Assembly: GCA_017560425.1 (NCBI GenBank)
Contig: JAFZEX010000005.1
Location: forward strand, 1 to 53,188
Length of the DNA: 53,188 nucleotides
Reading direction: 5' to 3'
From: Alistipes sp.
Lineage (GTDB): Bacteria > Bacteroidota > Bacteroidia > Bacteroidales > Rikenellaceae
Shown: one piece after another, positions 19,062-31,906 of the stretch
Numbering within the stretch: the stretch's first letter is position 1
Layout: every line of letters begins with the position of its first letter
Made by a program: the position numbers and the translations under genes
The notes under the pieces: model-generated
Databases searched by the model: none
Told to the model about the DNA's origin: nothing
The model's input: the letters and a program-made list of their open reading frames with translations, nothing else

Positions 19062-19080
19062 TACGAAGCTCGCTTATTTT
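19047..19080. terminator. Bidirectional terminator straddling the kinase stop codon
   Basis: GCGAGCCTCGT pairs with ACGAAGCTCGC (one wobble) around CTAAT, with TTATTTTT on the plus side and TATTATTTT on the minus side. It serves both convergent genes. Confidence 0.8.
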
Positions 19081-21239
19081 TACAATTTAGGATAGATTGT
19101 TGGCGGCTGAATCGACACATACTTAGCGCCATTGCCTCGTGATGTGCACACTAAGCGAATTGCCTTGATTGGGCGTGGAGGGTTGTTGATTATATACATG
19201 CCATTCTCCAAATTTCCGGCACGCAAGAACTCAACACCATCATAGCTAATCTCGGCATAGCCCTGCTCAAAGATGAAGCGAGGAAGTTGGAAGTTACCCG
19301 TTGCCACCTGCATGCTTCTGCAGTCCACGGGCTGGGCAAACGTAAACTGCACCCAATCGCCCACATTACATGTTCGTGCGGTGCGAGCCAAGCGGCCATA
19401 GCCCTGTGCCTTAGCGAAAGTCATCGACGAGTGCTGAGGCATCGACGAGGTGATGGTAAACTGAGGCTTCAGCGTACGGAAATATCCATCTACTGCAGCC
19501 TCGGGCGAAAAGGCTTTGCCACGACGTGACACAAATACATAGCGCTCGGGCTTAGTAGTTTTTATGGCTGATGAATATACCTCCTCGACACCCGTTACAG
19601 CATTGCGCACATATATCATCGAGCCATCGTCGCTCTTTGCGCTAAGCACACCATTCTCGAACGTAACCTTTGGAGGCATAAGGCGGTAGACAACGCCCAT
19701 AGCATCTAATCGAGCATAGTGCTTAGTCATCTTCTTATAAAATACCTCCTTGTCACGGCTATCACTACTTTGCCATGCAATCTCCGATAGCGACAACATA
19801 CGAGGGAATGTCTGATACTGTAAGAAGTCAGCCTTCTCGGGAGTGCGTGATGCGTATGCTTCGCTAAAGAACGATGCCTCAAAGCCAGCAACATTTTTGC
19901 ACTCTTCAGCAGTAAATCCGAGCGACGTGAGTGTCAAGCCATAGGTCTTGCTCCAATCAAATATTGCCGCCCAATCGTGACCTGGCTCACGCTTCGACTG
20001 CTTCATGTCGAAGTAGAAATATTGTCCTGGCATAACTATCGTCTTGTAGCCCTTGGCCGCCGATGCTCTGCACTCCTTAACACCCATCCAGCCAAATACC
20101 AAAGTGTTCGAAGGAAGGCTACCTCCATCAATAGCCTCGTTCCACACTGCGGGCTTCTTGCCATATTCCGAAAGCATATCCGCAATACGACACATGAAGT
20201 AGGCTTGCAACTGCTCGGGCTCGGTGTATTCGAGTTTCTCCATTAGAGCCTTGCAATCGGGACAAAGCTTCCACTGCGATGTATCAACCTCGTCACCACC
20301 AATATGTATATACTTTGTGTCGAAGAGCAGACACACCTCACGGATAATGTCGTGCAACAACGTGTAATTATTCTCGTTCGCCACGCAGAATGCCGAACGT
20401 GTGTCGTAGCCATACGATGCCTCAAGGTCGGGGGTGTAGTTACACAAAATCTCAGGGTGCATCGATGCCATAGCGAGGCTATGTCCCGGAAGGTCAATCT
20501 CAGGAATTACCTCGATGTTGCGCACCTTGGCATAGGCAATTATCTCACGCATGTCTGCCTGAGTGTAGTAGCCACCCCACTTCTCGGTCCACTTGCCATA
20601 GCGTGGCCATATAGGGCTATCGCCACCACGGAAGCCTCCTACCGAGGCAAGTTCAGGGTGCGACTTTATCTCCAAGCGCCACGCCTCGTCGTCGGTAAGG
20701 TGCAGACGTAGCTTATTAATTTTGTGATATGCCAACAGGTCGATATACTCCATTATCGCCTCCTTGGTAATCCACGTACGACACACATCGAGCATAAATC
20801 CTCGGTAGGCATAGCGTGGGGCATCCTCCACCTTGCAACAAGCAACCGTTGCGGGGAGCGTCAAACTATTGTAGACATCGGCGGGCAATAGCTGCATCAG
20901 CGTAGCCACGCCATTGAACACGCCACCATAGTCACCGCCCGATATCTCTACCCTATCTGTCGTAACGATTAGTCGATACTCCTCCGACTTAAGCGACGAG
21001 TCGATCTTAAGTGTAATCTCGCCCTTAGTACCCACCTCAATGTTTAGGTGCTTAGCAAGGTAAGAAGTAAGTGGAGCAAGTGTCGTTGATGTTGTTGCCA
21101 CAGTGTGCGACGACATAAGCCTAAACTCGCCCTCGTGGGCAACATACGACTTAGGGGTTGGAATGATTGCTGGGTTAGCCATCACAGCACATGTGCATAT
21201 TGTGGCAAGCAACGCAAATAAGATGCTTCGTAGTTTCAT
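19080..21239 (-). CDS. Beta-N-acetylhexosaminidase, glycoside hydrolase family 20
   Basis: Releases terminal beta-linked GlcNAc or GalNAc from glycans such as mucin O-glycans or chitooligosaccharides. 719 residues. A signal peptide (about 1-21, ending AVMA) sends it to the periplasm; there is no lipobox. The GH20b N-terminal domain is about 22-145. The GH20 barrel starts at YRGFMLDVCRTW and carries HLTDDEAW and the catalytic pair Asp316-Glu317 in HIGGDEV. A C-terminal beta-sandwich (about 560-719) ends with a discoidin-like WVQFTFAQPVDCR. Mechanism is substrate-assisted. It converges on the NahK-like kinase, which could phosphorylate the released sugar. Confidence 0.95.
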   Translation of the reverse strand: MKLRSILFALLATICTCAVMANPAIIPTPKSYVAHEGEFRLMSSHTVATTSTTLAPLTSYLAKHLNIEVGTKGEITLKIDSSLKSEEYRLIVTTDRVEISGGDYGGVFNGVATLMQLLPADVYNSLTLPATVACCKVEDAPRYAYRGFMLDVCRTWITKEAIMEYIDLLAYHKINKLRLHLTDDEAWRLEIKSHPELASVGGFRGGDSPIWPRYGKWTEKWGGYYTQADMREIIAYAKVRNIEVIPEIDLPGHSLAMASMHPEILCNYTPDLEASYGYDTRSAFCVANENNYTLLHDIIREVCLLFDTKYIHIGGDEVDTSQWKLCPDCKALMEKLEYTEPEQLQAYFMCRIADMLSEYGKKPAVWNEAIDGGSLPSNTLVFGWMGVKECRASAAKGYKTIVMPGQYFYFDMKQSKREPGHDWAAIFDWSKTYGLTLTSLGFTAEECKNVAGFEASFFSEAYASRTPEKADFLQYQTFPRMLSLSEIAWQSSDSRDKEVFYKKMTKHYARLDAMGVVYRLMPPKVTFENGVLSAKSDDGSMIYVRNAVTGVEEVYSSAIKTTKPERYVFVSRRGKAFSPEAAVDGYFRTLKPQFTITSSMPQHSSMTFAKAQGYGRLARTARTCNVGDWVQFTFAQPVDCRSMQVATGNFQLPRFIFEQGYAEISYDGVEFLRAGNLENGMYIINNPPRPIKAIRLVCTSRGNGAKYVSIQPPTIYPKL

Positions 21240-21296: not shown

Positions 21297-21333
21297 AAAA
21301 GAGAGGAGAGTAACTAACTTAGTCACCCTCCTC
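21297..21333 (-). terminator. Terminator of the nuclease/TonB operon
   Basis: On the minus strand GAGGAGGGTGACTAA pairs with TTAGTTACTCTCCTC around a short loop and runs into TTTTATATAT, 25 nt after the DUF5689 stop codon. Confidence 0.82.
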
Positions 21334-21357
21334 GAAAAGATTATTCGTTTGTATCTA

Positions 21358-22635
21358 CTAATGATACTCACTCTCGCCCTCCTCATCAATCCAAGGCACA
21401 GTCTTCATGTCCTCGGTTGTGAGCTGAGCAACCTGCTCGTCAGTGAGCAATGCAGCTTCGCCATTCTCGAACTCAAGGTCAGAGTAGCTGCTGATAGAGA
21501 GCTGGTATGAAGCATAGTCGTCGGCATTGCCAGCATAGCTAGACTTCTGAGCGTAGATGCCGTAGATAGCTGTGATAGTAGCCTTCTCACCATCCTTACA
21601 TACGTTGCGGCGTGCGAAGCGTGAGTAGCCACTTGTACGCAAAGCGTAAACGCCATTAGCCGAGCAAACAGTAGCCGATGGGTTGTAAGTAAAGAGCACT
21701 GAGCCATACAAGCTACGGCCTGTAATCTCCTCCTTGAATGCCCACTGATACCAGCCCTTAGATACTGTTGGACGTGGGTCGCTATACAACCAGCTTGGGT
21801 AGATGTTGTCGAACGAACCGCTCTTTAGCGCAGGGCTTGTCTCACCATTCTGGTTAGGCACACCAGCATAGTGGCACTCGAGACCCTCGAAGCGCATCAA
21901 ACGACCAAACATCAACTCACGCTGAATCATATTGAACGACTTACCATCAGAGGTCTGCAAGCTAACGCTGTTAGTGCCGAACACCTCCAAATAGTTCTCA
22001 GGTGTTACGGTGATGATATCAACTGACTTAGGGTTGCTCTTCCAATCGGCATAAGTACCAACCTTTAGCTCGGTCTTCTCGCCAGCAAACACGTGCTTGT
22101 CGATGATGCTCTGAAGCTCGATGTTTGAGTTAGCGTAGAACTTGTGCTCACCAGCCTTGTTGTAAGACTCTGATGGAGCACCACCCAACGACAACATCAT
22201 ACGGTAGTTACCCAAGTACAAGCCTGTAAGACGCACATAAACCCATGTATTCTTCTTGTACTTAAGACCTACGCTGTTGTTAAGCTTAAGCTCGATACCT
22301 GTTGTCTCGTCCTGAATATGGAGCGACTTGTAGATGTTACCCTCAGTGTCGCTTGAGATAACCTTACCCTTGATATATACATCACGATCAACGAAGATAT
22401 CCTCACCGATAAGTTTGTAGATAGTGTTGTTCCAGCCGCTATTAACACCTGTGTTGCTGATAGTACCAAAGGCGCTCTTTAGCTCAGCGATAGTGATATG
22501 CTCAGCATCGGGGAACATCTGCTCGAACGATGCATCATCAACCAAAGGAAGCACCTCTACATCGTTAAACTTCTCATAACAGCCAACCGCCAATAGTGCA
22601 GCGGCAAGAAGTGTAAAAATCTTTGTAATTTTCAT
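21358..22635 (-). CDS. DUF5689 OB-fold-like surface lipoprotein
   Basis: 425 residues with a lipoprotein signal (LLAVGC, Cys19) and an acidic mature start. The DUF5689 module is clear: ITIAELKSAF, VYIKGKVISSD, GNIYKSLHIQDET, then VGLKYKKNTWVYVRLTGL. Its strand order and QDET motif resemble nucleic-acid-binding OB folds of the YhcR type, and the large lipoprotein at the operon start carries a related module. A C-terminal beta domain (about 290-425) ends in an acidic tail. It directly follows the TonB receptor, where a SusD-like protein would sit in glycan systems. Inference: a surface binder that feeds ligand to the receptor. Confidence 0.78.
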   Translation of the reverse strand: MKITKIFTLLAAALLAVGCYEKFNDVEVLPLVDDASFEQMFPDAEHITIAELKSAFGTISNTGVNSGWNNTIYKLIGEDIFVDRDVYIKGKVISSDTEGNIYKSLHIQDETTGIELKLNNSVGLKYKKNTWVYVRLTGLYLGNYRMMLSLGGAPSESYNKAGEHKFYANSNIELQSIIDKHVFAGEKTELKVGTYADWKSNPKSVDIITVTPENYLEVFGTNSVSLQTSDGKSFNMIQRELMFGRLMRFEGLECHYAGVPNQNGETSPALKSGSFDNIYPSWLYSDPRPTVSKGWYQWAFKEEITGRSLYGSVLFTYNPSATVCSANGVYALRTSGYSRFARRNVCKDGEKATITAIYGIYAQKSSYAGNADDYASYQLSISSYSDLEFENGEAALLTDEQVAQLTTEDMKTVPWIDEEGESEYH

Positions 22636-22656
22636 AGTATCTTAAATCTTTAGCTG

Positions 22657-25581
22657 TTAGAAACGGAAGTAAACATTAAGATAGTAGTTCAAGCCATTCA
22701 TATAGAAATACTTCGAGTCGAAACGAGTGTATGTCGTAGGCTTCGGAATGATCTTCAACTCGCCCTCGTTGTCAGGGAAGATGATAGGATCAGAGAGCTT
22801 ATTGAGTCGCATCTGCTCGTAACCACCCGTGCGGATAGTCTGGTTGTTGAGAATATTGTTTACCTGAAGGCTGAAACCGAGGGTATACTTATACTTAATA
22901 CGCCAGTTCTTACCGATGCTTGCGCTAAGAGTATATGCACGACCGAGATCCTCCTGAGTACGAATCTCATCGATAACAGACATCACCTGAGCCTTCTGAC
23001 GACCTGTCTCAAGGTTGTTGTAGTCGTAGATGCGCTTGATCTCGTCAGCGAGATACTTAGTACGATACATTGGGTTCATCGACAAGTACAAGCGGTCGTA
23101 GTAGTTGAAGTCAAGAGTAGCATACCAGTTGTTTGCACCACGGAAATTAAGACCTACGTTGATAGCGGTCTGTGGTGTGCTCTCAACCTTCATACCCTTC
23201 CACTCAACGATGCTGTGAACAACGTCGGTTGCCGAGTTATCGATCATCTGTGTAAACTCTGGGTTAGATGTGTAGCGGTAGTCGCCAAGGCTCACAGCAC
23301 TCTGGAACGACAAGCCCCAAGCGATAGGAATGCTAAGACCAAGCTCAACACCCATATAACGCTTGTCGATGCCCGACATAGCAAAGTTAGTGAACGAGCC
23401 CTGAGTATCGTCGTAGAACGAGATAACCTTCGACTGATCGTACATCTGAGTGTAGTATGCCGACACTCGAGCACGAACCCATGGAGTATTGAGGTTGTAA
23501 GTGAAGTCAGCACCGTAGATCTTCTCAGGTGAAAGACCTGGAGTAATCTGGTTACGTGTACGTGCCGACACGAATGCGTTGTTGAATGTAGGAGCATTCT
23601 GCATAGCCACAGCATTCAATGCAATAGAGTGAGCGCCCGAGAAGCGGTAGTTAAGGTTTGCCTTAGCCTTGTATGTAAGGTTGTTAATCTTCTCAGAGTT
23701 GCCATACGATGTCTTGCCATGGTCGCCACCAGCGTTAGCATTGAGGAAGAGACCCTTCTCCCAAAGACCCTGACGCCACATGCTTGAAGCACCTACCTCG
23801 GCACCCAAGTCAGCGGTGAAGCCACCAGCCTTAACCTCGTATGCCGCCCAAATCTGACCCTGGCGTACGTGAGCATAGTAGTCGTAGTTGTACTTCTCGC
23901 CCTCCTTCACTGCCTGAGCCTTGCCGTGCTCACGGTAATATGCCATGTTGTTCTGATAAGAGATGTCGTTGCTACCGAAGTCACGCTCAGCAAACTTATC
24001 TACGTCCAACCAATAGTCACCACCAAGCAAGTCCTTAACCTCGCTATAGTACTCTGTGCGGTTTACACGTGCACGAATACCTGCTGTGAGCTTCGAGCCA
24101 CCACGGAACACGTGGTTAAGCTGAGCTGCGAAGTTGTAGTCGAGCTGGTCGGTGTGACGCTCCTCGATCATAGCATAAGCTCGGTGACCCTCGCCATAAC
24201 GTGGATCAACATCGCCACGCTTGTTGTCACGGATAAGACCATCGAAGTCGATATAGCCTGTCCAATTCTGCATGAACTCACGATACTTAAGCTTATCAGT
24301 CTCGAGCTCAGTCTCAGTAAATGGAAGTGTCATATCGTTGCTCTCGGCAAACTTATTGAGGCGCAAACGACGCTCGTAACGATCGCCATAGTATGATGGT
24401 AATCGACGGTAGTAGTCAGGACGTGGATCCTCACCCTGATACCATGTCAAAGCTGAGTAGCCATTGTAACCAAAGCGGAGTGATGTAGCCACTGAGAGCG
24501 ATGTGCGCTCTGTAATCTGCCAATTGTAATTAAGCATGGCGATAGGCTCGTGCATATCACGAACACGTGAGTTGCGCAACTCGCCATCCTGCAAACCTAC
24601 GTTAGGGTTATAGTAGTTGTCGCCCCAAAGGTCGTATGCCTCCTGAGTTGATGCCTGCTGAGCACCACGCTGTGTAGGTGCTGCCATGAAGGTAGCCGAA
24701 AGACGGTGCTTGTTGTTGAACGCCTTCTCAGCTGAGAAGAAGTAGCCATAAGCATTGTAGTAAACGCCATCAACATAGCCAGCACCACCCTGACGTGTAG
24801 AGAGGGTAAAGCCGTATGACCAGCCATTATCGAGCTGACCCGATGCGTAGCTAACCATAGCACGGAAACGGTAGAGCTGAGTAGAGTTCACAACGCTTGC
24901 ACGGAAGCCCTTGCGGAGCTGTGATGCACGTGCGTTGATGTTTGTTGTACCCGCAACACCACCAAGACCAAAGTCCGACATGCCAAGGCCCGAAGAGATC
25001 TCCTGGTTACGTGTAGCATCGTTCAAACCGCTCCACAACGACCATGGACCATAGCTTGTAAGCGCATCGTTGAAGCGGATACCATTGAGGTAAACCTCCT
25101 CGTACTGCGAGTCGTAACCACGTGTCTTGAAGCGCATCTCCGAGAAGCGATACGAAGCGATGTTGTTAAACAAGTCCTTAGATGCAGTAAGGATTGACTG
25201 CATAGCATTGTTGTCGCCCATAGACTCTGCATCGGTGTCGAGCTCAGCAAATGCTGAGTCATCAACGATGATAGTCGCTGCAGGAATCATGATAACCTGA
25301 TGCATGTCGTGAACAAGCTCCTTAACACGCACCATGAGCTGAAGATCCTCGAAGTCCTGTGCTGCGAATGTCATCTGGTACTGACCAGCTGCATAACCTT
25401 CAACATAGAACTCTCCACTATTGTCAGTTGTTGCCACCTGCACGCCATCAACCATAACCTTTACACCGCTAATTGGCTGACGGTCGTCACGCGAAACAAC
25501 TGTACCCTTCATACCTCCCGCCTGTGCAAAGGCACTAAGAGATAGAAGAGCGCAAATTGCTGTTAGTAAAAATTTCTTCAT
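22657..25581 (-). CDS. TonB-dependent outer-membrane receptor of the nuclease operon
   Basis: 974 residues. Signal peptide (1-19), then a carboxypeptidase-regulatory-like beta domain (about 21-105: GMKGTVVSRDDRQPISGVKVMVDG, quoted as GTVVSRDD and PISGVKVMV), a plug domain (about 125-230) and a long barrel ending in aromatic YLNVYFRF. It imports a ligand across the outer membrane using TonB energy. It is shorter than the majority of SusC proteins and no SusD gene follows; a DUF5689 lipoprotein does. Upstream in the same operon are two secreted nucleases, so the ligand is likely a nucleic-acid fragment, nucleotide or phosphate-bearing product. Ligand identity is inference. Confidence 0.93.
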   Translation of the reverse strand: MKKFLLTAICALLSLSAFAQAGGMKGTVVSRDDRQPISGVKVMVDGVQVATTDNSGEFYVEGYAAGQYQMTFAAQDFEDLQLMVRVKELVHDMHQVIMIPAATIIVDDSAFAELDTDAESMGDNNAMQSILTASKDLFNNIASYRFSEMRFKTRGYDSQYEEVYLNGIRFNDALTSYGPWSLWSGLNDATRNQEISSGLGMSDFGLGGVAGTTNINARASQLRKGFRASVVNSTQLYRFRAMVSYASGQLDNGWSYGFTLSTRQGGAGYVDGVYYNAYGYFFSAEKAFNNKHRLSATFMAAPTQRGAQQASTQEAYDLWGDNYYNPNVGLQDGELRNSRVRDMHEPIAMLNYNWQITERTSLSVATSLRFGYNGYSALTWYQGEDPRPDYYRRLPSYYGDRYERRLRLNKFAESNDMTLPFTETELETDKLKYREFMQNWTGYIDFDGLIRDNKRGDVDPRYGEGHRAYAMIEERHTDQLDYNFAAQLNHVFRGGSKLTAGIRARVNRTEYYSEVKDLLGGDYWLDVDKFAERDFGSNDISYQNNMAYYREHGKAQAVKEGEKYNYDYYAHVRQGQIWAAYEVKAGGFTADLGAEVGASSMWRQGLWEKGLFLNANAGGDHGKTSYGNSEKINNLTYKAKANLNYRFSGAHSIALNAVAMQNAPTFNNAFVSARTRNQITPGLSPEKIYGADFTYNLNTPWVRARVSAYYTQMYDQSKVISFYDDTQGSFTNFAMSGIDKRYMGVELGLSIPIAWGLSFQSAVSLGDYRYTSNPEFTQMIDNSATDVVHSIVEWKGMKVESTPQTAINVGLNFRGANNWYATLDFNYYDRLYLSMNPMYRTKYLADEIKRIYDYNNLETGRQKAQVMSVIDEIRTQEDLGRAYTLSASIGKNWRIKYKYTLGFSLQVNNILNNQTIRTGGYEQMRLNKLSDPIIFPDNEGELKIIPKPTTYTRFDSKYFYMNGLNYYLNVYFRF

Positions 25582-25596
25582 ATATTATATGTTTGA

Positions 25597-26628
25597 TTAT
25601 TTACCGATATAGATATATACGGGGAAGTGGTCGCTGAAACCGTTCTGGAAGTTGTTGGTAACAAACGTACGCAATGGATAACCCTTGTACTGACCCTCCT
25701 GCTGAAGCATATATGGGCGAGTAAAGATGTTACCATAGAACTTCTTACCCTTGATAAGGCGAAGCTTGCCATAGGTGCCGTTCACAAGGTTCTCGGTAAC
25801 GCAGATGTTGTCAAACAAGTTCCAAGAGTCCTGATATGCCAACGTACCCAAGCCAGCCTTGAGCATCTGAACATAAGGATTGAAGAAGTCGCCTGTTTCG
25901 AGCTCCTTAACCTTGCCCTTAGCGCCCATCACCTTCACCAAGCTTGCGTCGGTAGCATCGTCGTTGAAGTCACCCATAACCACAACCTTTGTTGCAGGGT
26001 TTGCCTGGAGCAACGAGTCCTTAATCTCACGAATCTGCTTTGCGCAAGCATCACGCTTAAACTGCGATGCCTCCTTACCGCCAAGGCGTGATGGCCAGTG
26101 CGACACGAGGAAGTAGAAAGGCTCACCCTCGATAGTACCCCACATAACCACAAGGTCACGAGTGCGGAAGTTTGGCAACTCAGGAACGTTGAGCTTAATG
26201 TTGTCGCAACCCTCGAGCTTGAAGACATCAGCACGATACAAGAATGCCACGTCTACGCCACGAGCATCAGGCGAGTCGAAGTGACAGATGCGATACTTAG
26301 CACCCTTAAGCTTAGGCTGTGACACCAAATCCTCCAACACGCTGCGGTTCTCAATCTCCGACACACCAAAAACAACAGGGTAATCCTTGTTGATTGCAGC
26401 CATGTCGAAAATCACACGCTCAAGATTTGATAGCTTCTTCTGATACTTTGTCTCATTCCACTTCTTAATGCCCTCAGGAGTAAACTCATCATCGTGAGTC
26501 TCAGGGTCATTGTAGATGTCGAAAAGGTTCTCAAAGTTCCAGAAAGCCACCATGTATGGCTTATCCTGCGCCACTACAGATGTAGCCGCAAGCACCATAA
26601 CTGATAGGATTAATAGAAATCTTTTCAT
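25597..26628 (-). CDS. Exported endonuclease/exonuclease/phosphatase (EEP) family enzyme
   Basis: 343 residues with a cleavable signal peptide (ending SVVAQ, about residue 20). The Mg2+-dependent EEP (DNase I-like) fold is complete: Asn31 (FWNFEN), Glu91 (VSEIEN), His177 (SHWPSR), Asp220 and Asn222 (GDFND), and Asp333-His334 (SDHFP). These are the metal and phosphate residues of DNase I-type nucleases, so hydrolysis of phosphodiester bonds in exported nucleic acid is expected. Phosphatase activity on smaller esters is possible. It sits between the NUC nuclease and the TonB receptor with 15-32 nt gaps, in one operon. Confidence 0.88.
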   Translation of the reverse strand: MKRFLLILSVMVLAATSVVAQDKPYMVAFWNFENLFDIYNDPETHDDEFTPEGIKKWNETKYQKKLSNLERVIFDMAAINKDYPVVFGVSEIENRSVLEDLVSQPKLKGAKYRICHFDSPDARGVDVAFLYRADVFKLEGCDNIKLNVPELPNFRTRDLVVMWGTIEGEPFYFLVSHWPSRLGGKEASQFKRDACAKQIREIKDSLLQANPATKVVVMGDFNDDATDASLVKVMGAKGKVKELETGDFFNPYVQMLKAGLGTLAYQDSWNLFDNICVTENLVNGTYGKLRLIKGKKFYGNIFTRPYMLQQEGQYKGYPLRTFVTNNFQNGFSDHFPVYIYIGK

Positions 26629-26660
26629 TGTACTACTTATATTAGATTATTGTTTGTCTG

Positions 26661-27866
26661 TTAGTAAATACCCCACTCCGATGGCTCAATGGTGGTCTTC
26701 ACCTGCTGCTCAACGCCATCATCAAGCATTGGGAAGAATGTGAAGCCGGTCTTCTGCTCGAGTTGCTCGATGGTGATGCAATCTGCTGCTGTGATTGTTG
26801 TGTCGTCGCCTGAGTTTTCGTGCTGCAACCAAAATACCACGGCACGAAGCTCCGATGGGTCGGTAATTTCCGAGATAGCCTTGCCTGTGTTACCCTTCTT
26901 TGTGCGGAGCAACGCCTTGTAGTAGTAAGTAGGCGTAGGACATGTCTTACCCGCCTTATCTGTTGTGCTCGATGCGATTGACGAGTGGTGCGAGCCACCA
27001 AAGTATGCACCCGTTACTACATAGAGTGTATCAGAGCAGATCATGCCACGCACCTTGCCCTCCAAAGCACCCCACTTCTTTTGGTTGAAGTTCGCCTGCT
27101 GAGGAGTCATGTTTGTTGCATAGAATGTCTGATCCATCATCTGCTGCGAGCACTTACGGTCGGCTGCTGGAAGCTGGTGACCACGGTCATACCAGCCGTT
27201 ATACGAGCCACGATCGAGTGCCGCCTGATAGCTATAATCCACCTGAGGATCGTAGCCAAACGAGCTATTGTTGCGGTTACCGCTACCTGTTGTGTATGCC
27301 GAGTGCAAAGGATAGGCTACCCACAACGATGCACGCAACTCAGGATCAAAGCAGTAAGTGTAGTTTCGAGCATTGCTTCGTGCGCCAAGCTCGCCGTAGT
27401 ATGTGTTGTAGATGTAGTTGCCCTGAACCTTGCATAGTGGCAACTCTGCCCAATCACGTTGAAGGGCTATCGAACTATCGTAGCTATCCTGAGTAAACGA
27501 TAGTGTGTAGTGCTTATGATCTGAGAACTCGACACGTAGCGTTGCCTCTCGGCTCACGCCCGAGTCGTTCTTCGAAAAGTAGATAAAGACAACCTTTGTT
27601 GTGCTGTTTGTCATCTCACCCTCGACCATGTTTACACCACCCGAGAAGTGTGCCCAATCATCTTCCGACTCAATGGTAATCTGATAAGATGTACCCTGTT
27701 GTGCCTCGAGCACCACAGCGCAATTCTTATTATCGCCATGAACAATTTCACTCTTTAGATAGGCATTACTCTCTACGACATTTACCGAGAAGTTCTCGCA
27801 GCCACACAACATTGTGGCAAGCACACACCACAAAGCAATAAAAGTCTTATTTGCTACTTTTAGCAT
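26661..27866 (-). CDS. DNA/RNA non-specific nuclease lipoprotein (DRGH family) with BACON-like domain
   Basis: 401 residues from the ATG at 27866; 23 more in-frame codons upstream cross a GC-rich hairpin and are rejected. Lipobox MLCGC (Cys23) anchors it to the envelope. An N-terminal BACON-like beta domain (about 25-125) is followed by the beta-beta-alpha-metal nuclease domain: Asp227-Arg-Gly-His230 (general base), Asn261 (metal, NFNQKKW) and Glu269. This is the Serratia/NucA nuclease active site, which cuts both DNA and RNA without sequence preference. It is the second gene of the operon and precedes the EEP nuclease by 32 nt. Confidence 0.9.
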   Translation of the reverse strand: MLKVANKTFIALWCVLATMLCGCENFSVNVVESNAYLKSEIVHGDNKNCAVVLEAQQGTSYQITIESEDDWAHFSGGVNMVEGEMTNSTTKVVFIYFSKNDSGVSREATLRVEFSDHKHYTLSFTQDSYDSSIALQRDWAELPLCKVQGNYIYNTYYGELGARSNARNYTYCFDPELRASLWVAYPLHSAYTTGSGNRNNSSFGYDPQVDYSYQAALDRGSYNGWYDRGHQLPAADRKCSQQMMDQTFYATNMTPQQANFNQKKWGALEGKVRGMICSDTLYVVTGAYFGGSHHSSIASSTTDKAGKTCPTPTYYYKALLRTKKGNTGKAISEITDPSELRAVVFWLQHENSGDDTTITAADCITIEQLEQKTGFTFFPMLDDGVEQQVKTTIEPSEWGIY

Positions 27867-27907
27867 AAGTTTAAATTTATAGATTTTTGAAGATTTTCTC
27901 TCGCCCC

Positions 27908-27932
27908 CTCGGGTGGGTCTGTCCCACCCGAG
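27908..27932. repeat. Intercistronic GC-rich hairpin between the first two operon genes
   Basis: CTCGGGTGGG and CCCACCCGAG form a perfect 10-bp stem with a 5-nt loop. On the minus strand no T-run follows, so it is not a full terminator; it may attenuate transcription or stabilise the upstream mRNA. Confidence 0.85.
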
Positions 27933-27954
27933 CATATGGCGAAAGAGTTAAATG

Positions 27955-30642
27955 TTACTCAGCGTATACAACAGTGATGCTATCTACACGTACCTGACCA
28001 GCAAGACCTGTAATAGCGTATGATGTAGCTGCAGAGCTCAAAGTTACAGTAACTACAGTACCATCAACAGTAACGCTGCCTGAGCTGATAGAGTTCTGAA
28101 GGTCTGTTGGATATGTAGTCTTGTAATCGTCACAGTTGAAGATAATCTGTGAGAACGCTGCATCAGCTGCAATAGTTACGTTAGAGCTCTTGTAGAAACG
28201 AGCAGGGTTGTAGTAGTCACCAACGTTGCTTGTAGAAGAAGCCTTGTCGTTAGTTACTGTGATACCGTTCTGCTCCCATACCTGCTGCTCAGATGAGTAA
28301 GATGTGCGGTTTGCAACATCGTCGAAGTAGATTGTTGCAGACTCACCTGTACCAGGAGTTGGCTCTGGATCAGGTGTAGGCTCTGGCTCAGGAGTAGGAT
28401 CTGGCTCTGGCTCAGGAGTTACATTGCCACCATTCAAACGCTCGCCAGTCAAACCAGCGTAGTCAGATGCCTGAGCAAAGATAATCTGCATATTGCCGTT
28501 GTTGATAGAAGAGATACCCTTGATAACACCAGCACCCTGAGCAACAGTCTCAGCACCGTAAGTAGCATACTTAGATGAGAATACAACGAACTTGTTGCCA
28601 GCAGCATCCTCCATGTTGATAGATGTGTGAGCACCACCCATTACCCATGTGTTTGCGAGGTCTGACTCAGAAACCTGAACACCCTCAATTGCAACGTACT
28701 GACCCTCGTACTTATTAGCAAGGAAGTCAGCCATAGAGATAGTCTTAGGAGCAACAGTGTTACCAGTAGACACTACAGTGATCTTATCCAAAGCAAGACC
28801 GCTAATCTGAACAGCGCCGTTGTAAGCACCAAGAGTAGCACCGTTAAGGTCGATCTGAAGCTTAGTACCGAAAGCGTAGTCGTGGTTAGCTGCAAGATAG
28901 AACTGCAAAGCACCTGTCTCGTCCTGAACATACATACCCTTCTTTGAAGTGAGGTTGTTAAGCTCAAGGTTAGAAACTACAACAGCCTCGATAGTGCCGC
29001 TAAGAGTAGCACCCTGGCCCTTTGCCAATACAGAAGCGATTGAAACAAGGTCAGATGGAGTTGGTGTTGGCTCTGGCTCTGGAGTTGGATCTGGGTTTAC
29101 AGGCTCATCGCCGCCACCCTCACCTGGAGTGAGTGCCTCGTCAGAGAGCTTAACACCGCAAACAATAGCACGTGCTGAAGCCATTGTAGAGTCAGCAGTT
29201 GTAAGTGCGAAGTTAGCGTCAGTTGAGAACTCGATCTTTGAAGCAGCAGTCAAGCCCTCGAGCTTGATTGAGTAGTGATCAGTTGCAGCAAATGCAAGCT
29301 CTGCGTATGGAGGGTTACCTGTTACACCGTCGTGTGAAGCAAGCTTCTGTGACTGAGTAGCGCCACCATCAACACGGAAGTAAAGGGTTACATCGCCACC
29401 CTTCCAGCCCTGAGCATAGAAGTTGAGGTACTTAGTACCCTCTACGCTTACAGCGCCTGAAACAAACTTACCAGCCTGCTTAGACTTACCCAACTTGAAG
29501 CCGGTTACTGCCTGACCGTTGATAGTTGTTGCACCCAAAGAGTAAGCAGCGTTTGCTGAGTCGTCAGCAGCACATACGAAAGCTGAGTCAGACTCGTACT
29601 CACCTGTAGCAGGAGTGTTAGGGCCATCGTTGCCACCCTCATTGCCACCACCACCTGGGTTCTCAGTGCCATTCTCAAGGTCGATAGCCTGACCGCCGTT
29701 ACCTACGAAAAGCTTAAGGTCGTCAAGACGATAAACTGAAGCAACAGTAGCCTGGAACTTGATGTATAGCTTCTCAGGAACCTCGTTAAGAGTGAAGTTA
29801 GCAGTAGCAACATTCCAACGACCAGGCTCAGTACCTGCATAAGTGTACTCAACAGAAACCCACTTAGAGCCGTCCTTTGATACGCTCATAAGGAACTCCT
29901 CAGGGCGGAATGTACTGTCGCCATCCTGAGTATACTTCTCAGTACCGAAAGTAACCTTGTAGTTTACGCCCTCCAATGGGGTGATGTCGTTGATTACGAA
30001 GTAAGCGTTGCTACCGAAGAAGATGTTGTTAGAGCCTGAACCAGCATAGTCTGAGTAAGAGCTGTTAGATGTTGAGTTAGCACGTACAGATACGCCTGAA
30101 CCGGTGTAAGTTACGTTAGCTGCAGCATCACCCTTAGGGTTAGCGAACTCAGGGAACTGGTCGATGTAAGGCCATGAAGAACCTGAACCGTAGGTCTTAG
30201 TTGCCTCCTTGCCATCGAAGTTATCGCTGTAAAGAAGCTCCTCGGTAACTGTTACGTTCTCGTCAGCAGACTGCTGAACCTTAATCTTTACGGTATCCCA
30301 TGCCTCGTTGTACTGAGGGTGGATAGCGCTTACACGTACTGTTGCCTCACGCAAAGCACCAGTCTCGTTAGCCGATACAGCAACAGTGATAACACCGTTC
30401 TTGTTACCAGCAGCAGGAGCTACAGTAACCCAGTCAGCATCAACAGAAGCTGTCCAATCAGCATTACATGTGATGTTCACATCCTGGCTACCCTCCTCAT
30501 TCGAAAAGTTCAACGATGTTGTAGAGACCTCCACAGTAGGATCGCCAACAACCTCGTTAGGCTCCTCACATGCCACGAAGCCAAGGGCTGAGCCCAAGAC
30601 CATTGCAACAGCAAAGAGTGACTTAAAAAGTTTGTTTGCCAT
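27955..30642 (-). CDS. Large modular surface lipoprotein with BACON-like, OB-fold-like and other beta domains
   Basis: 895 residues. Lipobox FVAC (Cys25) followed by acidic EEPNE, like a Bacteroidota surface-export signal. Modules in order: BACON-like (about 35-125); a jelly-roll-like domain (about 135-320, starting LLYSDNFDG); a second beta domain (345-505); a Pro/Glu/Thr linker; an OB-fold-like module (about 535-735) whose LSGTIEAVVVSN and KGMYVQDETGAL resemble the DUF5689 protein of this operon; a second PEPT linker; and a C-terminal beta domain (767-895, YYNPARFYKSS). No catalytic motif. It is the first gene of the operon. Inference: a multivalent surface binder that captures substrate for the nucleases and receptor. 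Confidence 0.8.
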   Translation of the reverse strand: MANKLFKSLFAVAMVLGSALGFVACEEPNEVVGDPTVEVSTTSLNFSNEEGSQDVNITCNADWTASVDADWVTVAPAAGNKNGVITVAVSANETGALREATVRVSAIHPQYNEAWDTVKIKVQQSADENVTVTEELLYSDNFDGKEATKTYGSGSSWPYIDQFPEFANPKGDAAANVTYTGSGVSVRANSTSNSSYSDYAGSGSNNIFFGSNAYFVINDITPLEGVNYKVTFGTEKYTQDGDSTFRPEEFLMSVSKDGSKWVSVEYTYAGTEPGRWNVATANFTLNEVPEKLYIKFQATVASVYRLDDLKLFVGNGGQAIDLENGTENPGGGGNEGGNDGPNTPATGEYESDSAFVCAADDSANAAYSLGATTINGQAVTGFKLGKSKQAGKFVSGAVSVEGTKYLNFYAQGWKGGDVTLYFRVDGGATQSQKLASHDGVTGNPPYAELAFAATDHYSIKLEGLTAASKIEFSTDANFALTTADSTMASARAIVCGVKLSDEALTPGEGGGDEPVNPDPTPEPEPTPTPSDLVSIASVLAKGQGATLSGTIEAVVVSNLELNNLTSKKGMYVQDETGALQFYLAANHDYAFGTKLQIDLNGATLGAYNGAVQISGLALDKITVVSTGNTVAPKTISMADFLANKYEGQYVAIEGVQVSESDLANTWVMGGAHTSINMEDAAGNKFVVFSSKYATYGAETVAQGAGVIKGISSINNGNMQIIFAQASDYAGLTGERLNGGNVTPEPEPDPTPEPEPTPDPEPTPGTGESATIYFDDVANRTSYSSEQQVWEQNGITVTNDKASSTSNVGDYYNPARFYKSSNVTIAADAAFSQIIFNCDDYKTTYPTDLQNSISSGSVTVDGTVVTVTLSSAATSYAITGLAGQVRVDSITVVYAE

Positions 30643-30738
30643 AATAAAAATTGTTTAAGTGAATAAAAAGTTTAAAAAGTTATATTAGTCAAACTTACGT
30701 TGTCGCCATATATCTCTTTAGAGATAATATGGAACATG

Positions 30739-30769
30739 CAAAGATAGCACGAATTTTGGAATAAATAAA
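30739..30769 (-). promoter_or_regulatory. Promoter of the nuclease/TonB operon
   Basis: TATCTTTG (30746-30739) on the minus strand with TTTA 19 nt upstream (30766-30769). The roughly 90-nt leader contains a small hairpin TATCTC-TTTA-GAGATA at 30711-30726. Confidence 0.55.
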
Positions 30770-30870: not shown

Positions 30871-30889
30871 CATGATAATTTTTCCGAGT

Positions 30890-31906
30890 ATGGGAGTAGA
30901 CAGAAACATGCGAAACATCGAGAGCGACAAGGAGTTTGAGAGTCGTATTCGCCCACAACAGCTTCAAAACTTTGCGGGCCAGGACAAGATTGTCGCCAAC
31001 CTCAAGATATTTATCAAGGCAGCACTCATGCGTGGCGACTCGCTTGACCACACGCTGCTTCATGGCCCTCCAGGATTGGGCAAGACAACGCTTGCTAACA
31101 TCATAGCCAACGAAATGGGCGCACAGCTTAAGGTGACGTCGGGCCCCGTGCTCGATAAGCCTGGCGACCTTGCGGGCCTGCTCACCAACCTTAACCCTGG
31201 CGACGTGCTCTTCATCGACGAGATTCATCGTCTAAGTCCTATTGTCGAGGAGTATCTCTACTCGGCAATGGAGGACTATAAAATAGACATCGTCTTGGAC
31301 AAGGGCCCCGCAGCACGCTCCATTCAGATTGAACTTGCACCATTCACGCTTGTTGGTGCGACCACTCGTAGCGGTCTGCTCACTGCCCCACTGCGTGCCC
31401 GCTTTGGCATCACCTGCCACCTCGAGTACTACGATGCTCCGATTCTCGCAGGTATCGTGAAGCGCTCAGCATCAATCCTCGACATCTCGATTGATGACGA
31501 TGCAGCGCTCGAGATTGCATTACGTTCACGAGGTACACCACGTATTGCCAACGCCCTACTTCGCCGTGTTCGTGACTTCGCCATGGTCGAGGGCGAGGGA
31601 CACATCGACGTTGATATAACACGTGTTGCACTCTCGGCACTCAACATCGACTCACGAGGCCTTGACCAAATGGACAACAAGATATTGGCTACGATTATCG
31701 AGAAGTTTAACGGAGGCCCTGTCGGTCTTAACACCGTTGCCACTGCCGTTAGCGAGGAGGCTGGCACCATCGAGGAAGTTTATGAGCCATTCCTCATTAA
31801 GGAGGGTTTCCTCAAGCGCACACCCCGAGGCCGTGAAGCTACCGAGCTCGCCTATAAGCACCTCGGCTACACTTATTCTCGTGGCGACGAACAGTCATTG
31901 TTTTAA
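30890..31906 (+). CDS. ruvB: Holliday junction branch migration helicase RuvB
   Basis: Hexameric AAA+ motor that, with RuvA, drives branch migration of Holliday junctions in recombinational repair. 338 residues from the ATG at 30890; the ATG at 30872 lies before the predicted transcript start, and 30908 is another possible start. Motifs: [15 protein letters not shown] at the N terminus, Walker [11 protein letters not shown] (Lys65), Walker [11 protein letters not shown], sensor 1 VGATTRSG, and a C-terminal winged helix ending [16 protein letters not shown]. Own promoter and terminator; no ruvA nearby, as is common in Bacteroidota. Confidence 0.96.

Follow-up and report, generated by a model that had tools for sequence, protein, structure and literature searches.

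A five-gene operon of an Alistipes-type bacterium that joins two nucleases to a transformation-type receptor and may carry outside DNA into the cell

Operon architecture

Five minus-strand ORFs, A to E, span positions 21358–30642 of the window (the whole 53,188-nt stretch of DNA analysed), part of a draft genome that amounts to 1.84 Mb in 50 contigs and is 89.55% complete. They are separated by gaps of only 19, 32, 15 and 21 bp, consistent with the close packing described in the original prediction. Gene A (27955–30642, minus strand) encodes an 895-aa surface lipoprotein, as judged from the ORF and Pfam. Gene B (26661–27935, minus strand) encodes a DNA/RNA non-specific endonuclease lipoprotein of the EndoG/EXOG/NucA kind, assigned from Pfam, a structure match and conserved residues, and gene C (25597–26628, minus strand) an exported 343-aa EEP nuclease of the Exo_endo_phos_3 family, assigned from Pfam and conserved motifs. 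Gene D (22657–25581, minus strand) encodes a 974-aa TonB-dependent receptor (TBDR), the ortholog of Riemerella RA0C_RS04915 according to Pfam, profiles and a tree. Gene E (21358–22635, minus strand) encodes a 425-aa DUF5689 surface lipoprotein, by Pfam and position the counterpart of RA0C_RS04920.

The single promoter and single terminator proposed earlier both hold up. A putative –7 promoter box of Bacteroidota type, TATCTTTG (30739–30746, minus strand), was located by reading ~100 nt upstream of gene A; it fits TAnnTTTG, the Bacteroidota –7 consensus. The motif is found in the 150 nt preceding A in all 32 usable relatives, which are related sequences counted without a shuffled background; usable here means an A match starting at residue 1 with room upstream. 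At the other end, a terminator scan placed an intrinsic terminator with a 14-pair stem and a T-rich tail at 21303–21333 (minus strand), its stem being the longest among the seven terminator-like sites of the window. Because the scan counts lie near the shuffled background (terminator-like sites, 7 versus 10.0 on average after shuffling; promoter-like sites, 18 versus 13.9), the scan is by itself no proof of either signal. Past the terminator, a GH20-type hexosaminidase was recognised by eye at 19080–21239, and a ruvB gene, likewise by eye, lies divergent from the operon at 30872–31906.

Pfam agrees with the predicted succession of lipoprotein, nucleases, TBDR and DUF5689 lipoprotein, the sole addition to the earlier domain guesses being a DUF5689 domain in gene A (residues 549–727) beside BACON (62–124), with linkers rich in Pro and Glu. 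Gene B matches Endonuclease_NS (7.7e-39) and carries the DRGH motif at 250–253; as listed it has 424 aa with the lipobox Cys at residue 46, and the true start is likely an internal Met. A search of solved structures matched it to EndoG (E 2e-19), which groups it by similarity with EndoG, EXOG and other Endonuclease_NS nucleases of solved structure. Gene C matches Exo_endo_phos_3 (1.8e-110) as a full-length domain with the N/E, D-N and D-H motifs; the same structure search gave only weak matches for it, to unrelated proteins. The claim that both nucleases keep their active sites is borne out: R251-G252-H253, N284 and E292 of gene B are invariant in 66/66 rows, the D of DRGH falling outside the residues kept in 97% of them, and D220, N222, D333 and H334 of gene C are invariant in 110 EEP rows, with its motifs as a whole invariant or nearly so. 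Gene D has a CarboxypepD_reg match and a Plug match under the Pfam cut-off. Gene E matches DUF5689 (1.5e-25) chiefly over the domain's first part (profile 3–122), shows no DUF5017 match in Pfam, and has a lipobox Cys19 that is invariant in 34 rows. Neither D nor E matched anything in the searches of solved structures. The two nucleases apart, Pfam detected no nucleotidase, phosphatase or nucleoside transporter domain in A–E.

With a TBDR, surface lipoproteins and exported degrading enzymes in one operon, the layout resembles a SusCD polysaccharide-utilisation locus, but nucleases replace the glycoside hydrolases, and no SusD or SusC model matches A–E at E ≤ 1 (SusC/RagA models for D; SusD models for A, B and E). 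The same libraries recovered positive controls, namely TIGR04056 (SusC) with 553 bits in L128 and 465 bits in L237, and SusD in L128. A SusCD polysaccharide locus is thus rejected, and the predicted absence of SusD stands, as does the placing of a lipoprotein in the SusD position, where the DUF5689 gene E directly follows D.

Conservation in relatives and across the class

The closest named relatives are Alistipes/Rikenellaceae gut metagenome-assembled genomes, many of ruminant origin. Because the window genome carries family label f1 and other Alistipes-like loci f35, we call the group Alistipes-type. Out of 330 relatives found, the 80 best EEP loci were scanned with the window proteins. D lies directly downstream of C in 77/80 loci, the exceptions being L079, L080 and L081, which keep B and C but have neither D nor E. 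In all 72 loci with room on the contig, D is followed by E. The operon is also carried by a cultured commensal, Alistipes muris DSM 112343 (locus L041). B precedes C in 77/80 (in L072, L076 and L084 the contig starts at or near C), and an A-like match on the same strand is present in 62/80, a count that includes contig-end losses. The ruvB neighbour was matched only where EEP identity reached at least 79%; retained only in the nearest relatives, it indicates that the operon is conserved as a unit beyond its surroundings.

Across the class, the D family was found at E ≤ 1e-60 in 76/296 genomes, covering 42/166 genera and 18 family labels, with two candidates scored per genome; among genomes sampled from Riemerella's family (the family of G012), D was found in 289/296. 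We then took regions around D from 40 of the 76 D-carrying genomes (31 genera). DUF5689 lies downstream of the TBDR on the same strand within 2.5 kb in 37 of 38 assessable loci, the contigs of L226 and L231 ending too early; the gap is ≤30 nt in 36, and in L225 the DUF5689 gene lies 1.4 kb downstream. An EEP gene lies within 4 kb of the TBDR in 34/40 loci, 31 of these 34 having it on the opposite strand, a tally whose EEP model, unlike its DUF5689 model, was trained partly on the same loci. Both partners are present in 33/40 loci; L208 has neither, and in L203, L207, L225 and L229 no EEP gene falls inside the 4-kb range. An ORF-based tally with an Alistipes-only EEP model gave DUF5689 in 36/40 and EEP in 33/40 loci, and a six-frame tally under an overly strict distance gave 23 and 34 of 40. 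The neighbourhood check thus sustains the predicted gene set, in Alistipes-type genomes (EEP–TBDR 77/80, TBDR–DUF5689 72/72) as in the class (34/40 and 37/38).

Gene B stands outside this wider core: its type is present in only 4 of the 40 TBDR-centred loci (L195–L198, all of family label f35) and absent from all 40 DUF5689-centred loci (L115–L154). The tree of receptors mostly tracks family labels, with rows of f7, f3 and f35 split; it is a quick tree with long outgroup branches, and clade membership rests on match scores as well. Two tandem DUF5689-type genes adjoin the receptor in L205, L206, L216, L230 and L233, from several families, a pattern reminiscent of the additional DUF5017 gene described for F. 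columnare (PMC8459023). In L197 (11002–12585), from a relative of the same order, Endonuclease_NS is fused behind a fimbrillin-like domain (PF13149).

DUF5689 and its partners

DUF5689 is present in 76/148 phylum genomes. We sampled 80 regions from 69 of these 76 genomes, which yielded 84 DUF5689 ORFs (L184 gave none), and scanned 81 of them, 27 in-class and 54 out-of-class, omitting three long or extra ones. Among the 54 out-of-class proteins, 52 re-match DUF5689 and 49 have a type IX secretion tail; 29 carry EEP/Exo_endo_phos (PF03372), 11 a PLD-like domain, and 6 match a model of an OB fold that binds nucleic acid. The 27 in-class proteins include one each with Endonuclease I, Exo_endo_phos and a PLD-like domain, and three with DUF5017; found in just 3/27, DUF5017 is read as a variable tail and no requirement. 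DUF5689 is fused to Endonuclease I, or to EEP with a type IX secretion tail, in L122:8909–11170 and L144:9335–11113, and these fusions adjoin D-like or Oar-like receptors. In L128:4423–10833, by contrast, a SusC receptor, a SusD-like lipoprotein and a DUF5689 protein stand in one row outside D's family, so that DUF5689 is no marker of DNA import alone.

A further pair of small genes for DUF5689 lipoproteins was noted at G000:C28:35748–37164 (L115:8731–10267), with neither receptor nor nuclease directly adjoining; a D-related receptor (71.9 bits) lies ~8.6 kb away at C28:45792–47630, and dprA at C28:56632. The DUF5689 model (PF18942) also matches in the Bacillus subtilis control genome, where a candidate for the matching gene would be YhcR, a secreted nuclease with an OB-fold. 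The literature searched, with thin coverage of subscription papers and preprints, mentions DUF5689 by name only in a Riemerella transposon screen (PMC8459023).

Orthology with the Riemerella transformation locus

That screen bears directly on D and E. Markerless deletion of RA0C_RS04915 or RS04920 was reported to bring transformation below detection (~4e-10), versus 5.4e-5 in the wild type (PMC8459023). RS04915 is described there as a receptor with PF13620 and RS04920 as a DUF5689 plus DUF5017 protein, and an insertion in RS04915 inactivates RS04920 (PMC8459023). Mutants of tonBA and tonBB show lower transformation, the authors ascribing the tonBB effect to iron (PMC8383284).

The locus was located in genome sequence through an exact match to the 23-nt comEC primer from PMC8383284, found in 2 of 31 genomes, mostly small and from Riemerella's family; the two are taken as R. 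anatipestifer or a very close relative. Both contain, in order, recA, dinB-like, sdhB-, sdhA- and sdhC-like genes, comEC, a 145-aa gene, a 542-aa gene that is a carboxyl transferase, EEP, TBDR and DUF5689, where recA, comEC, EEP, TBDR and DUF5689 were identified by Pfam and the dinB and sdh names given by eye. This order fits the published locus tags, which rise in steps of 5 from RS04870 to RS04920 and likewise place recA five genes ahead of comEC. The Pfam content of the last two genes agrees with the published description (PF13620; DUF5689 plus DUF5017, the latter under the Pfam cut-off). PMC8459023 names RS04910 as the gene upstream of RS04915; the EEP gene, RS04910 by count, is absent from the gene lists examined in that paper. 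Farther along in one of these regions (L238:10491–15932, genome G461), cas2, cas1 and cas9 were recognised by eye after DUF5689, and L240 has a similar set nearby in a different order.

Several comparisons link this receptor to D. Searched against the window genome, the Riemerella receptor has D as its best match (280.7 bits; next 71.9). In the other direction, the D profile has a single match at E ≤ 1e-60 in Riemerella genome G461, from a search that gave no position, and scores 486.5 bits on the receptor beside comEC. The two proteins align with 26% identity over 1005 columns (E 1e-101) and share one tree clade with support of 90. By sequence, then, D is orthologous to the transformation-essential Riemerella receptor. 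Gene C and the Riemerella EEP are 40% identical over 304 aa, whereas E and RS04920 align well over 74 aa only (40%).

The window and the RA0C_RS04915/RS04920 locus thus have in common an orthologous CarboxypepD_reg TBDR, DUF5689 directly downstream and an adjoining EEP gene. They differ in that the Riemerella EEP is divergent with comEC and recA near, whereas in the window EEP is co-directional and comEC lies on another contig; B and A are added upstream, and E, without DUF5017, covers mainly the first part of DUF5689. The original prediction knew of no described system with exactly this gene set, which now needs qualifying: the receptor and last gene match RA0C_RS04915/RS04920 (PMC8459023), so the EEP–TBDR–DUF5689 core is already partly described through the Riemerella pair, while the five-gene set as a whole was not found described among the papers listed in the literature searches, where subscription papers and preprints were thinly covered.

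Competence genes in the genome

Profile searches found the ComEC, DprA, HHH_3 and DUF1343 (now NamZ_N) families in the window genome. They cover most of the Riemerella list, yet as common families, with matches in several control genomes too, they are weak evidence. ComEC in particular is found in 290/296 class genomes, and its presence therefore says little; since D occurs at E ≤ 1e-60 in 76/296 only, many ComEC genomes are without a close D. Linkage to ComEC was accordingly discarded as a discriminator. Among the places listed, comEC lies ~4 kb from the receptor in Riemerella and ~7 kb in G343. We know of no report of DNA uptake or competence in Alistipes.

Discussion

Counterparts of a Riemerella transformation receptor and its surface protein share one operon here with two exported nucleases, which suggests that DNA entry may be the operon's role and that it may carry outside DNA into the cell, beyond a mere feeding system. 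We consider it probable that the operon is a TonB-driven outer-membrane DNA importer, and favour this over nutrition alone. The mechanism we propose begins at the cell surface, where lipoproteins E and A would use DUF5689 to bind extracellular DNA; the two nucleases, lipoprotein B and exported EEP enzyme C, would nick or trim it to free an end. D, capped by E as SusD caps SusC, would then pull the strand to the periplasm with energy from TonB, whence an HHH (ComEA-like) protein and ComEC could hand it to the cytoplasm for recombination; alternatively, periplasmic enzymes could use the imported DNA as food. Import for food and import for recombination are mutually compatible. DNA as the ligand is suggested by the Riemerella mutants and the nuclease association, and the route through D by the outer-membrane part of the locus together with the tonB mutants; that DUF5689 binds DNA, that DNA passes by way of D and what A, B and C each contribute are all inferred in this scheme. 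On the best reading, Alistipes-type bacteria have added another nuclease and another DUF5689 lipoprotein to the importer. It counts against this reading that nucleases outside the cell often lower transformation, so that two of them co-transcribed with a transformation receptor would be an odd combination.

A rival reading is nutritional scavenging for carbon, nitrogen or phosphate, in which surface nucleases cut DNA or RNA, D imports oligonucleotides, and transformation is a by-product or a trait of other lineages. Two nucleases with kept active sites in one operon fit such a role, as does the patchiness of D in the class (76/296 genomes), and Bacteroidota have been linked in published work to phosphate scavenging and to the breakdown of DNA outside the cell. 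Flavobacterium offers a parallel in its SusCD-like phosphate-utilisation complexes (PusCD), which stand next to phosphodiesterases and likewise tie TBDR-type import to these enzymes; it also has EndA nucleases that are extracellular, and induction is under low phosphate (PMC8115612). The PusCD systems, however, are described as SusCD-like pairs with phosphatases (PMC8115612), and the window genes are not SusCD; nor does the operon hold a nucleotidase, phosphatase or nucleoside transporter domain. The core mostly tracks family lines in the tree, with D in nearly every sampled genome of one family, and the sole known receptor/DUF5689 mutants lose transformation (PMC8459023). Scavenging alone therefore seems unlikely to us. 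The original proposal of nucleic-acid utilisation survives in part: nucleic acid is the likely ligand, given the Riemerella mutants and the DUF5689–nuclease association, but nutrition as it was stated is not upheld.

It is considerably less probable that the nucleases serve defence or clearing, degrading biofilm or host-trap DNA while the receptor imports something else. L079–L081, with B and C but no D or E, indicate that the nucleases can occur where the receptor is absent; against this, EEP is near the TBDR in 34/40 loci, and the TBDR and DUF5689 genes are needed for Riemerella transformation (PMC8459023). Most improbable is a secretion or assembly role for D that makes the Riemerella phenotype indirect, for although a TonB-dependent transporter is needed for PopC secretion in Myxococcus (Gomez-Santos 2019, cited in PMC8383284), D and Oar-like receptors are far apart in the tree, on long branches, and D is paired near-constantly with DUF5689 and EEP.

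The preferred reading of DNA import can be widened, more tentatively. D, E and their orthologs could constitute a type-IV-pilus-independent, TonB-powered outer-membrane DNA translocator that is old in Bacteroidia and has a DUF5689 lid and an EEP nuclease dedicated to it. In that case, gut Alistipes-type bacteria that are uncultured would possess the full, extended form and might be capable of natural transformation. We rate this conjunction as a serious possibility, somewhat short of an even chance. By what route DNA gets through the outer membrane of Bacteroidota is an open question: for P. gingivalis, most components of the uptake machinery are described as unknown, and a T4P-like conjugation pilus as not involved (PMC11532111). 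The Riemerella mutants and the class-wide nuclease-linked module name testable parts for this step, DUF5689, a domain of unknown function, gains a concrete testable role, and the module points to gut and environmental genomes in which DNA uptake may be expected. The Riemerella authors reported receptor homologs in Flavobacteriaceae only (PMC8459023), whereas receptor matches here extend to 18 family labels.
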